A DNA stretch of 21,480 nt from a virus: positions 1 through 21,480 of IMG/VR virus record IMGVR_UViG_3300044638_005192, one strand, 5' to 3'. This document shows positions 8,265 through 21,313 of the stretch, in pieces. The position numbers and the translations under genes are program-made. Position 1 is the first letter of the stretch. Each line of letters starts with the position of its first letter. The notes beneath the pieces were generated by a model. That model did not search any database, was not told where the DNA came from, and saw nothing but the letters and a program-made list of their open reading frames with translations.

Positions 8265-8298
8265 TTTAGTTTCCTTTTGTTTGTGGTTTGGAAGTAGA

Positions 8299-8307
8299 AC
8301 TATAGCA
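8299..8307 (-). promoter_or_regulatory. Leftward extended -10 promoter
   Basis: The minus strand reads TGCTATAGT in the left palindrome arm. The expected start point near 8292 is 28 nt before the ATG at 8264. No clear -35 hexamer is seen in the AT-rich centre of the palindrome. Confidence 0.55.
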
Positions 8308-8341
8308 TAAGACAAATAATTTATATGTTTTATTTGTCTTA

Positions 8342-8350
8342 TGCTATAGT
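8342..8350 (+). promoter_or_regulatory. Rightward extended -10 promoter
   Basis: The mirror copy of the leftward element, TGCTATAGT, in the right palindrome arm. The start point near 8357 would be 25 nt before the ATG at 8382 of the Cro-like gene. No clear -35 is visible, so activity would rely on the extended -10. Confidence 0.55.
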
Positions 8351-8381
8351 TCTACTTCCAAAACAACTTATGGAGAACAAG

Positions 8382-14244: not shown

Positions 14245-14510
14245 TGCCTAGTCCTAAACAACTAGCTGCTGGACTACAGACCTATACGCCAAAGCGTACT
14301 TTGTTGAGTGAGACGGTCAATGGCGTTGAGATTACGCCACAGCAGTCTGCTGCTCTATCTGCAACTAACCCTGCATACCAAGCAATGGACGCATACGGTG
14401 AACAGGCTAAAGCTAGATTAATTGGCGCACCAGCAGTAGACCCGTCACTGGACACCTTCGCAGAACAAGCTAGAGCTAGAATGATGGCTAGAAAAAATGC
14501 CCTCCGCTAA
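14244..14510 (+). CDS. 88-aa protein with internal repeat, unknown function
   Basis: 88 residues. It starts MPSPKQLAAGL, close to the MPSAKELAKAL start of the next, much larger protein. The second half contains an imperfect repeat, YGEQAKARLIG and FAEQARARMMA, about 23 residues apart, predicted to be amphipathic helices. It overlaps the next gene by 14 nt. No family recognised. The shared N-terminus with the large downstream protein hints at a common signal such as virion packaging, but that is speculative. Confidence 0.6.
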   Translation: MPSPKQLAAGLQTYTPKRTLLSETVNGVEITPQQSAALSATNPAYQAMDAYGEQAKARLIGAPAVDPSLDTFAEQARARMMARKNALR

Positions 14511-16197
14511 AGAACTAGCCAAAGCCCTAGCGTATCGGGGCGAGATTAGGAACACGCCACAGAATAGTTTTCTAGGTGGTGTAGCTAACTTTCTTGCTCC
14601 AGTATCAGAGTTTCTTGATCGGGACAAGTTACCTGAGAGCATACCTTTTCTTGGAGGTATGAGTTTAGCTGACCTAGGGGTGAAGGGAACTGAAAGTCTT
14701 GTAAGGGACATGAGCTACGGCACACCGCCCATCAGAGGTGCATCACTACAGACCGCTAAGGTAGACCCCAGACTATTTGACCTTGCTAGTGTGTCTGGTG
14801 CAATGATGCCTGTCGGCAAGGCGTTAGGTAAGGCTGCTGCAATGAAAGCTGCTGAACATATACAAGACCGCACTGGATTTGCAAGGCTTATGCCTGATAC
14901 AAGAATGGGGGTAGTTCCAGAGGGCAAATCTTTCCCATCACAAATGTCAGAGTATGTGCCGGGCGTTAAATCTGGTGATGAAATGCTTGTAACTCATAAT
15001 CTAACCGCTGAAAAACTGTATGGCGCTGACAGATTAGGTGGTATGCCAGTTCCATCATTGGGAATAAGTAAATTATCTAGTCCATTAGAAGGATTTGGTG
15101 ATATTACTTTTGTTGGCGGCAGAGAAATGGCAGTGCCTTCTAAAGTAAATCCGGTGTACAAGTCAGACGCATACACAAAACGCAGGCCAGAAATACAGCG
15201 CGGTATGGATAATAAGTCTAGTGCAAACCTTACAAATATGTTTGGAGATTTGCCTAGACAGTTGCCTGTAAGGGGTGAGACTGAGTTAGAAAAGCTAATA
15301 GGTAATTTTGGCGATGCTCCAAACAACAAATTATTGCAAGCAAAGTTCTTGCAAGAAAAGGGTATTTTGCCAAACCCTGAAGATTATGCAGACAAATGGC
15401 AGTTTAATGAGCAGATATACAAACTACGTCAAGCTAATCAAAATGAGTATGACTCATGGGTTGATTCGTTTATGCAATCTTTGCCTGAAAGCGGTGTAAA
15501 GGTTAAAAATGAGATATTTAAGGGATATACACCTTCTGGAAACAGAAGATATGTTGAAGCTAATTTAGAAAACATAGTGAAAGATATGAAGGGTGGCCCT
15601 AACACTGAAGGTTGGAATTATGGTGTAGGCAATCTAAGGGCAGTAGCTACTCCTAAGTTTAAGAAGTTTGACGAGATTACTAAGGGCAGAGATAGGCTTA
15701 TATCAAATGATGAATTTACAAATATAAAACAACCGTCCGATGAAATGTATAGCTCCATATCAGGAAAGCTGCGTAACTTAGATAAAAACTATTCTCCTGA
15801 CGATGCTATGTTGGAGGTAGCGGAAACTGGAAACATCAATGCGCTAGACAGAATCTATAAAAATATACCTACTGAACTAAAAGCTGAATTATCTTCTTAT
15901 ATTGGTGGATTGAAGCAAATGCCAACTAATTACTTTGAAGTAAAGCCGCAAAGATCGGTAGGCATTGGCGAGTTTAAAGGAGCATTAGTTCCTAGTGACT
16001 TACCTAACAAAGCAAGGCAGATCATTGATAATGCTGGGATTAAGGATGTATACACTTATGCTAATGAAGCAGAGCGTAAAAATCTCCTTAAAAAGTTTGG
16101 CAAAGATATGTTCTCTGTTATGCCAGCCATTCCCGCTGGCTCAATGTTAGACCCTCAAGCAATAGCTGAAGCACTTAGACAACAGGACAGAAAATGA
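14497..16197 (+). CDS. Large polyvalent-protein-like phage protein
   Basis: 566 residues. N-terminal MPSAKELAKAL, then a Gly/Ala-rich, partly hydrophobic region (about 25-120), then a segment at about 160-230 reading EMLVTHNLTAEKLYGADRLG, PVPSLGISK, EGFGDITFVGG and DAYTKRRPE. This resembles domains found in phage large polyvalent proteins, multi-domain proteins thought to be injected with the DNA. The rest (about 240-566) is charged, helical and unrecognised. From about 14950 to 16130 the gene is visibly more AT-rich than the portal gene, suggesting separate ancestry. Its location between terminase and portal is uncommon. It could be an internal virion protein or host-takeover effector. Confidence 0.65.
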   Translation: MPSAKELAKALAYRGEIRNTPQNSFLGGVANFLAPVSEFLDRDKLPESIPFLGGMSLADLGVKGTESLVRDMSYGTPPIRGASLQTAKVDPRLFDLASVSGAMMPVGKALGKAAAMKAAEHIQDRTGFARLMPDTRMGVVPEGKSFPSQMSEYVPGVKSGDEMLVTHNLTAEKLYGADRLGGMPVPSLGISKLSSPLEGFGDITFVGGREMAVPSKVNPVYKSDAYTKRRPEIQRGMDNKSSANLTNMFGDLPRQLPVRGETELEKLIGNFGDAPNNKLLQAKFLQEKGILPNPEDYADKWQFNEQIYKLRQANQNEYDSWVDSFMQSLPESGVKVKNEIFKGYTPSGNRRYVEANLENIVKDMKGGPNTEGWNYGVGNLRAVATPKFKKFDEITKGRDRLISNDEFTNIKQPSDEMYSSISGKLRNLDKNYSPDDAMLEVAETGNINALDRIYKNIPTELKAELSSYIGGLKQMPTNYFEVKPQRSVGIGEFKGALVPSDLPNKARQIIDNAGIKDVYTYANEAERKNLLKKFGKDMFSVMPAIPAGSMLDPQAIAEALRQQDRK

Positions 16198-19611: not shown

Positions 19612-19692
19612 ATGGCCTTCGCCAATAGTTCAGTTTCAGACATCATTGCGACTAACATTCAAAGTCGTACGGGTGAACTAGCTGACAACGTT
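19612..19692 (+). CDS. Major capsid protein, exon 1 (codons 1-27)
   Basis: ATG at 19612 follows AGGAG (19601-19605) at good spacing. It encodes 27 residues, MAFANSSVSDIIATNIQSRT then GELADNV. The frame then hits TAA at once (19693-19695). The N-terminus matches the known start of a capsid protein family in which LADNV is followed directly by TNNNALL. Here that continuation is found 700 nt downstream at 20393. The phase is clean: exon 1 ends on a complete GTT codon. Without splicing only this 27-residue peptide would be made. Confidence 0.88.
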
Positions 19693-20392
19693 TAACTTAT
19701 AGACGTTATAAAACTCCGTGAATTCGGTGAAAAGCTGAGATGCCAACACCGAGCCAAGACGCACAGGATACCCAATGGGTGCGTAAGGTGTAACGACTAG
19801 GACAAAGCGGAAGCAGAGTCCCACGAGCGCGGAGCGTAAGTATCAACCACAGAGGAGTATTCCAAATGGTGACAGTGTACGGTTTAGAGGATGCAAGCAC
19901 TGGGGCAGCGTATGTAGGCTGCACAGCGGGCAAGATAGGTAAGAGGATGCGAGAGCATAGGAGTCTACTAAAAGCCGGTAAGCATAGCTCTAAGAGGTTG
20001 CAAGAAGCGTGGAACGATCACGCTGGTGAGTTTCAGATGAAGGTACTTGAGACAATGCCAGCAGAAGTATCAGTGATTGAGAAGCGTGAGCGCGAGTTGT
20101 CTTGGATGAAGCACTATAGAGGTAGTAATTTGTTACTAAACGAGAATGAGTATTCGTTTAGACCGCCTCCAAACGCTCCTGCAATGGCAGCAAAGTCTAG
20201 GGTAGCTAATGGCTACAGACCGAGCGCAGAAAGCAACCTAAAGCGTAGATTGGCGCAGATTGGTAGGCCGAAAGGTCACGGTGCTAAGATTAGCGCTACC
20301 AAGAAAGCGATAAAACTTGCGATGAGATAGTCTGCTCTGCATATAAATGGAATATGCAGGTTCGGGATAAAGAGCCTGAACATAACACAAGG
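19693..20392 (+). ncRNA. Group I intron in the major capsid gene
   Basis: 700 nt. P1: exon end AACGTT (19687-19692) pairs with the guide GACGTT (19702-19707), giving five Watson-Crick pairs and the diagnostic U-G pair at the splice site. P3-like: ACACC (19746-19750) with GGTGT (19787-19791). Enclosed stem: CGCAC (19760-19764) with GTGCG (19779-19783). P7-like: GACT (19795-19798) with AGTC (19817-19820). The 3' end has two hairpins, 20337-20344/20352-20359 (8 bp) and 20360-20366/20375-20381 (7 bp with one G-U), and the last base is G. The homing endonuclease gene sits between core and 3' hairpins. A P10 pairing with exon 2 is not obvious. Precise subgroup cannot be assigned by eye. Confidence 0.88.
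19866..20330 (+). CDS. GIY-YIG homing endonuclease (intron-encoded)
   Basis: 154 residues, ATG at 19866 with GAGGAG (19852-19857) 8 nt upstream. The GIY-YIG module is visible: VYG (4-6) and AYVG (15-18) as the two signature strands, catalytic Arg27 in KRMREH with H31, and a metal-binding Glu in KRERELSWMKHY (probably E77). The C-terminal part (about 100-154) is highly basic (LKRRLAQIGRPKGHGAKI), as expected for a DNA-recognition region. The gene is free-standing and not in frame with exon 1. It should cut intronless capsid alleles near the V27/T28 codon junction and promote copying of the intron. All catalytic motif residues appear intact, so it may be active. Confidence 0.87.
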   Translation: MVTVYGLEDASTGAAYVGCTAGKIGKRMREHRSLLKAGKHSSKRLQEAWNDHAGEFQMKVLETMPAEVSVIEKRERELSWMKHYRGSNLLLNENEYSFRPPPNAPAMAAKSRVANGYRPSAESNLKRRLAQIGRPKGHGAKISATKKAIKLAMR

Positions 20393-21313
20393 ACAAACAA
20401 CAACGCACTACTGCGCCGCTTGAAAGATCGTGGCAATGTAAAAACCTTTTCTGGTGGGAATGTTATCCTTCAGGAAATCATGTATTCAGATTCGGCAACT
20501 AATAATACCAATAGCTATTCGGGCTATGAAGTGTTGAATGTTTCGCAAAACAGCCCGATCAGCGCCGCGCAATTCTCTATCACCCAATACGCTGCTGCTG
20601 TTTCAATCAGCGGTCTTGAGATGATTCAGAACAGCGGTAAAGAAGCAATCATTGACCTGCTTGATGGTCGTATGAATGTTGCTGAAGCTCAATTGGCTAA
20701 TCGTATCAGTGGTGACTTGTACCTCGATGGTACTGGTAACGCTGGTAAGAATTTGACCGGGCTAGGCGCTGCTGTACCTGATGCACCAAGCACTGGAACA
20801 TACGGCGGCATTAATCGTGCTACCTATAGCTTCTGGCGTTCAGTTAAGTTCAGTGGAGCTACCGATGGTGGATCGGCTACTTCAGCATCCAACATTCAAG
20901 GTTACATGGACTCACTAGCTGTTCAGTTGATTCGGGGTACGGACAAGCCTGATCTGATCGTTGCTGACAACATCTTCTATCGTATGTACCTGCAATCGCT
21001 GCAAAGCATTCAGCGTATTAGCGATGGTGGAAACAGCACTGCTGGAGCTGGTTTTGCTTCACTCAAATACTACGGCGCTGGTATGGCTTCTGATGTTGTT
21101 CTGGACGGTGGTATCGGTTCAAGCGCAACAGCAAGTCATATGTGGATGCTGAACACCAAGTATTTGATGTTCCGTCCTAACGTTAACCGCAACTTCGTAC
21201 CAATCGGTGGCGAACGCCAAGCAGTCAATCAAGATGCTATCGTTAAACTAATTGGCTTTGCTGGAAATTTAACTTCAAGCGGCCCGCAATTCTGCGGCGT
21301 TCTGCTGGCTTAA
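20393..21313 (+). CDS. Major capsid protein, exon 2 (codons 28-333)
   Basis: The coding sequence resumes after the intron's terminal G with ACA AAC AAC AAC (TNNN) and runs 306 residues to TAA at 21311-21313, so the spliced protein is 333 residues (join 19612..19692, 20393..21313). Recognisable coat-protein features: TNNNALLRRLKDRGNVKTFSG, then SYSGYEVLNVSQNSP, SISGLEMIQNSGKEAIIDLL, and ANRISGDLYLDGTG, near-universal in this phage coat family (HK97-like fold expected). The ATG at 20354, lying inside the last intron hairpins, is not the true start: the 13 codons before TNNN are intron. The protein forms the capsid shell with the scaffold encoded upstream. Confidence 0.9.
   Translation, partial: TNNNALLRRLKDRGNVKTFSGGNVILQEIMYSDSATNNTNSYSGYEVLNVSQNSPISAAQFSITQYAAAVSISGLEMIQNSGKEAIIDLLDGRMNVAEAQLANRISGDLYLDGTGNAGKNLTGLGAAVPDAPSTGTYGGINRATYSFWRSVKFSGATDGGSATSASNIQGYMDSLAVQLIRGTDKPDLIVADNIFYRMYLQSLQSIQRISDGGNSTAGAGFASLKYYGAGMASDVVLDGGIGSSATASHMWMLNTKYLMFRPNVNRNFVPIGGERQAVNQDAIVKLIGFAGNLTSSGPQFCGVLLA

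Follow-up and report, generated by a model that had tools for sequence, protein, structure and literature searches.

What becomes of a phage major capsid gene whose reading frame stops after 27 codons and resumes only 700 nt further on? The DNA analyzed here (hereafter the window) comprises the 21,480 bases of IMG/VR virus record IMGVR_UViG_3300044638_005192, and such a split gene lies near its right end, after the terminase and portal block. We consider it very probable, close to certain, that the major capsid gene is interrupted between codons 27 and 28 by a mobile group I intron, with splicing and homing (features in Table 1). Re-reading of the sequence showed that the coordinates and exon limits of the initial annotation were correct: the TAA stop (19693-19695) directly follows exon 1, exon 2 begins TNNNALL... 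at 20393, right after G20392, and the predicted spliced product has 333 aa.

Table 1. Features of the split capsid gene and its intron, with positions in the window.
Feature	Positions	Strand	Evidence
Exon 1, major capsid gene, 27 codons (...LADNV)	19612..19692	+	Empty alleles L001, L002: these 27 residues continuous with exon 2
Group I intron (possibly IA-like), 700 nt, first codon in-frame TAA, final G	19693..20392	+	P1, core covariation, covariance model
P1: exon AACGTT 19687-19692 with guide GACGTT 19702-19707, terminal U·G	19687..19707	+	6/6 pairs
P3: 19714-19718 with 19830-19834	19714..19834	+	100/100 cells paired; both-side changes at 4/5 pairs
P4: 19724-19729 with 19747-19752	19724..19752	+	116/120 cells paired; both-side changes at 2/6 pairs
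P6a: 19759-19764 with 19779-19784	19759..19784	+	120/120 cells paired; both-side changes at 6/6 pairs
P7: 19795-19799 with 20328-20332, closes P3/P7 core	19795..20332	+	100/100 cells paired, invariant
P8: 19835-19841 with 20315-20321; endonuclease gene in loop	19835..20321	+	Helix in 20/20 introns
Endonuclease Shine-Dalgarno in 3-bp hairpin (19854-19856 with 19861-19863)	19852..19863	+	Motif in 48/53 distinct introns
GIY-YIG homing endonuclease, 154 aa	19866..20330	+	PF01541, I-TevI chains, dN/dS
P9 hairpin: 20337-20344 with 20352-20359	20337..20359	+	Perfect in window; 104/160 cells (65%) paired
Exon 2, major capsid gene, 306 codons + stop	20393..21313	+	phrog_9953; Mx8, Mx9, BUCT555, ppBjS10J-1

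By sequence similarity, exon 2 is a major head protein of the Mx8 type, which bears out the capsid identity first assigned to it. From residue 13 on, the open frame over exon 2 aligns with phrog_9953 (major head protein, E 1.5e-92), and it is 48-52% identical to the capsid proteins of phages ppBjS10J-1, BUCT555, Mx8 and Mx9. In four annotated records (L150-L153), one reading frame covers the whole capsid gene, starting 25 to 27 codons upstream of this match. In the window, the open frame through exon 2 starts at ATG 20354 and spans 319 aa, the first 13 of them encoded by the intron, so caution is needed in annotation: these leading residues are not capsid protein. Capsid relatives were also found in seven bacterial genome contigs, all metagenome bins from mixed phyla.

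Elsewhere in the window, an inverted repeat with 36-nt arms (97% complementary, 10 nt apart) lies between divergent ORFs at 8284-8365; it is possibly an operator or terminator, and it matches several Rfam microRNA models, probably merely through its hairpin shape. The head block includes an ORF with a PBECR5 nuclease-like domain (14497-16197; PF18814, E 2e-17). A small ORF with a lipoprotein-like start (1425-1637) is nested, in another frame, within a membrane-protein-like ORF (1157-1645), possibly a pair resembling Rz/Rz1 spanins.

Among the best 80 of 597 capsid relatives retrieved from IMG/VR, 63 run uninterrupted from codon 27 to codon 28 and 17 carry an insert, so that the homologues have no natural break at this point, in agreement with the intron proposed at the outset. 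In two of the empty alleles (L001 and L002), the 27 N-terminal residues are fused to an exon-2 protein identical to that of the window, and exon 1 differs from the window's by a single base, the last of codon 27. The gene can thus do without the 700-nt insert, whose two ends are set by this comparison. The empty alleles likewise set the position of the intron-final G (G20392), which is present in the window; its occurrence in 53/53 distinct introns is built in, as the 3' site search demanded a G.

These introns at the codon-27 site were taken from 83 loci including the window, 53 of them distinct, with some loci representing one contig fetched twice; one locus (L126) was left out of the extraction when the exon-2 pattern missed it. 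Such recurrence speaks against an assembly artefact in which a foreign intron was joined into the capsid gene, a concern raised by the fact that the data are metagenome contigs, as does another IMG/VR contig (L003) whose intron, exon 2 and 800 upstream bases are identical to the window's; we regard this explanation as scarcely credible. A second alternative would be that the insert is an endonuclease gene that interrupts the capsid gene and is not spliced out, with exon 2 translated alone from ATG 20354 through the open frame with 13 foreign residues. A start codon in frame with exon 2 does exist in 42 of the 53 distinct introns (ATG 23, TTG 15, GTG 4), but at distances from exon 2 that range from 3 to 498 bases, and the other 11 lack all three of these codons in the stretch from the last in-frame stop to exon 2. 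Since the empty alleles fuse the N-terminal residues to exon 2, against a separate exon-2 protein, and since covarying ribozyme pairings speak against an unspliced broken gene, this alternative seems very improbable to us.

The pairings of the proposed intron begin with P1, for which the U-G pair at the splice site, predicted in the initial annotation, was confirmed. All six P1 pairs form in 53/53 distinct introns through four different sequences (AACGTT/GACGTT in 48, GTGTCT/GGACAC in 2, GTCTCT/GGAGAC in 2 and CAGGTT/GACCTG in 1), the search having demanded the terminal U·G and left the other five pairs free. The introns with GTGTCT/GGACAC or GTCTCT/GGAGAC are inserted one codon further on.

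For the remaining helices, paired cells (pairs x rows) were counted in a 20-row intron alignment from which the endonuclease had been taken out. P3 and P7 are there, as first noted, and so are the two 3' hairpins; P3, P4 and P6a change on both sides (Table 1). P7 is without covariation support in this alignment because it is invariant there; an apparent single P7 mismatch was read by eye in L140 and L276. In every row the two P8 stretches form a helix, 5-10 bp long and variable in sequence, and 32.5% of composition shuffles come up to the lowest value of the real introns. Subgroup IA is marked by additional stems, P7.1/P7.2, that lie between P7 and P3'; a candidate P7.1 (19800-19803 with 19818-19821) is paired in 63/80 cells (79%) and P9.1 in 70/80, slid versions of each being not much worse. 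The structure as a whole, counted with P8 one register off, is paired in 878/1040 cells, vs. at most 474/1012 when slid by 1-3 columns, and the paired fraction in a shuffled control has a mean of 0.736 and a maximum of 0.753 (500 shuffles). Taken together, P1, the core covariation and the empty alleles support the assignment of the insert as a group I intron.

Some introns at the same site (L136, L138, L144, L218, L240 and L276, read by eye) have a much longer P5 region. Three of them (L136, L138 and L144) carry a related endonuclease, so that a single endonuclease family may serve two types of ribozyme, one with the long P5 and one without.

We also searched with covariance models. A model of our own, built from only eight distant introns (with endonucleases 43-58% identical to the window's), gives the window intron a score of 129.3 bits (E 9.9e-38), the sole match in the 21,480 bases on both strands at E up to 10. 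Because this model was built independently and gives a single match of such strength, the structure is not a chance resemblance. No match up to E 0.1 was obtained with it in 11 intronless capsid loci (L001, L002, L007, L010, L018, L024, L077 and L150-L153), and it missed L269 and L278, both found by Rfam. The Rfam group I search suggested in the initial annotation was borne out in part. A gathering-threshold scan of the whole window returned no match, and permissive scans gave a weak one to RF00028 (29.9 bits, E 1.5e-5), below the curated cut-off of 50, which is a database threshold and not a biological criterion; the same-site relatives L218 (72.0 bits) and L240 (62.7 bits) pass that cut-off, however.

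The intron also holds a GIY-YIG endonuclease gene, absent from the initial annotation. Its product matches PF01541 (26.8 bits, cut-off 22.6) and the I-TevI structure chains 1mk0 and 1ln0 (E about 6e-7, best 5.7e-7), with Arg27 and Glu77 aligned to I-TevI catalytic positions, which we take to be Arg27 and Glu75 of that enzyme. The endonuclease is under purifying selection: dN/dS is 0.06-0.10 in 9/10 pairwise comparisons, the tenth (with L125) being saturated at synonymous sites. The gene is interlaced with the ribozyme, its last codons forming the P8 3' strand and its stop codon overlapping the P7 3' strand. The outer pairs of the Shine-Dalgarno hairpin vary together (45 G-C and 3 U-A for one, 34 G-C and 14 A-U for the other), the middle pair being fixed by the search pattern; the five introns without the motif comprise three shorter than 300 nt (L157, L218 and L276) and two long ones (L133 and L144). 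Relatives of the endonuclease occur in 223 phage records, all below 60% identity, and the 20 listed are mostly homing endonucleases of T4-like and Bacillus phages. For two relatives with no capsid gene nearby (L147 and L148), the model search gave no intron match. The accessible part of one source names conserved Arg, Glu and Asn residues for GIY-YIG endonucleases (PMC2988022).

Comparison of sequences indicates that the intron moves horizontally. Between the window and L075, the intron is 97.0% identical, vs. 72.8% for exon 2 and 67.0% for the upstream region (779 aligned bases). On a quick capsid tree of 90 distinct exon-2 sequences (57 empty, 33 with intron) from 101 loci, which excluded L017, for its incomplete exon 2, and intron loci whose exon 2 is broken again, intron presence requires 11 state changes, gains and losses not being told apart; 10 of these are forced by starred branches, and shuffled labels average 27.0. 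When intron-region DNA was compared to 50,697 phage records, 15 gave short matches and none covered 80% of the query.

The codon-27 site is one of five supported group I intron sites in the capsid gene of these phages. Group I models match at about codon 65-67 (L269 and L278, 41.1 bits), about codon 72 (L107, L112, L140 and L165, with L133 placed roughly at 68-71), about codon 85 (L099, 64.2 bits) and about codon 109 (L140, 50.1 bits; L165, 118.5 bits with our own model). Splice points are clear for some of these introns and ambiguous for others, notably at codon 109 and in L133. Up to three introns occur per gene: L140 holds three model-supported introns, and L112 holds two, along with an insertion of 248 nt near codon 306. 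The insertions at about codon 306 (L112 and L115), without a model match, were not counted as group I introns, nor were those at about codon 67 (L129, best E 0.064) and about codon 152 (L110, 22.4 bits, E 0.19).

It is tempting to speculate, with a fair measure of doubt, that the capsid gene of the Mx8-like family has been a long battleground with at least five intron sites, in which empty alleles escape homing by a synonymous change at codon 27; we consider this unlikely as it stands. Of the intron alleles among the best 80 of 597 relatives, all 14 with a readable exon 1 have GTT at codon 27; the 63 empty alleles have GTA (41), GTC (19), GTG (2) or TTA (1). The GTT of the intron alleles is explained simply by co-conversion of the -1 base with the intron. 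Within the window's clade, the counts favor an avoidance of GTT by empty alleles: GTT is found at codon 27 in 0/57 distinct ones, and of 12 conserved Val columns codon 27 alone is free of T. On the other side, three more of these Val columns contain just 1-3 T, and 3/86 other conserved fourfold columns are T-free too. Empty alleles with GTT are common in distant clades. In the wider set, from which 18/185 loci without a usable codon 27 were dropped, GTT is found in 26/158 Val empties vs. 51.8 expected, a deficit mostly gone when counted by clusters (13/43 vs. 10.4 expected at 80% identity, 18/81 vs. 21.1 at 90%), so that a general avoidance of GTT by empty alleles finds no clear support. Because of this unclear pattern and the other T-free columns, we keep the escape reading only as a speculative one. 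If it holds, intron-free phages lacking a U just before the splice junction would resist homing.

Judging from its sequence, the capsid-gene intron is almost certainly self-splicing. In the mechanism that we propose, the ribozyme core would fold in the transcript, guanosine would attack after U19692, and exon 1 would be joined to exon 2 after G20392, yielding a normal 333-residue capsid protein. An I-TevI-like enzyme encoded in the P8 loop and made in a co-infected cell would cut, close to the junction of codons 27 and 28, capsid genes that lack the intron, an activity to which the horizontal transfer points indirectly; repair from the occupied copy would then spread the intron. In RNA left unspliced, ribosomes would halt at the TAA with which the intron begins, releasing a 27-residue peptide. 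Could the intron be kept because splicing times, or "gates", coat protein production, as first suggested? Since an in-frame stop opens the intron, unspliced RNA cannot yield the capsid protein by simple reading, and such a stop opens 53/53 distinct introns (TAA 45, TGA 8). This count is partly built in, however, as the 5' site search demanded T[AG]A, a step at which 0/84 candidates failed. That 63 of the 80 closest relatives (from the 597) do without the intron also speaks against gating, as does the flickering of intron presence on the tree, expected for a tolerated mobile element, which makes a timing role improbable in our view.

How does this mobile intron compare to known systems? One close parallel is the major capsid gene of mycobacteriophage LittleE, for which the accessible part of the report describes splicing demonstrated by RT-PCR and protein sequencing (PMC3706429). 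As in the window, that intron (~820 nt) contains an endonuclease frame, is preceded by U, ends in G and is absent from sister phages; in contrast, its endonuclease is read from the other strand (the text calls it LAGLIDADG-like, a legend HNH), the intron type is left open there ("most likely a group I"), and the phages and host are different (PMC3706429, same portion). The same text names a group I intron in a capsid subunit gene of lactococcal phage Tuc2009. In the sections available of another report, group I introns are described in the MCP gene of the Delta and Zeta groups of crAss-like phages, one Zeta gene being split into five fragments (PMC7886860); these are unrelated gut phages, and those sections do not deal with occupied vs. 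empty alleles at a single site. For a huge gut phage clade, the available text of a preprint gives a total of 2,513 group I introns (PMC12393476).

The T4 td/I-TevI system offers a parallel for the layout of the endonuclease gene. According to the available portion of PMC2988022, the 3' end of the GIY-YIG ORF there also runs into the ribozyme core and the ribosome-binding site of the endonuclease is also buried in RNA structure, and td intron homing proceeds by a double-strand break with co-conversion of flanking exon. In contrast, the td gene is not a virion gene, and I-TevI is a 28-kDa protein, vs. 154 residues in the window, where the hairpin has only 3 bp. A phage intron endonuclease can also serve as a weapon against a co-infecting phage, as stated in the accessible part of PMC11620839, and by analogy the window's endonuclease could have such a role. 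Our literature search, with subscription papers mostly outside it, found no report of an Mx8-like capsid intron; one paper combined Mx8, major capsid and intron, the last only within a reference. As capsid introns have been reported for LittleE, Tuc2009 and crAss-like phages, the intron in the window is a well-supported further case of a known type.

Overall, an essential and presumably highly expressed virion gene has been repeatedly invaded by mobile introns within one phage lineage. The dense set of related occupied and empty alleles makes homing, loss and possible synonymous resistance testable in a single gene.
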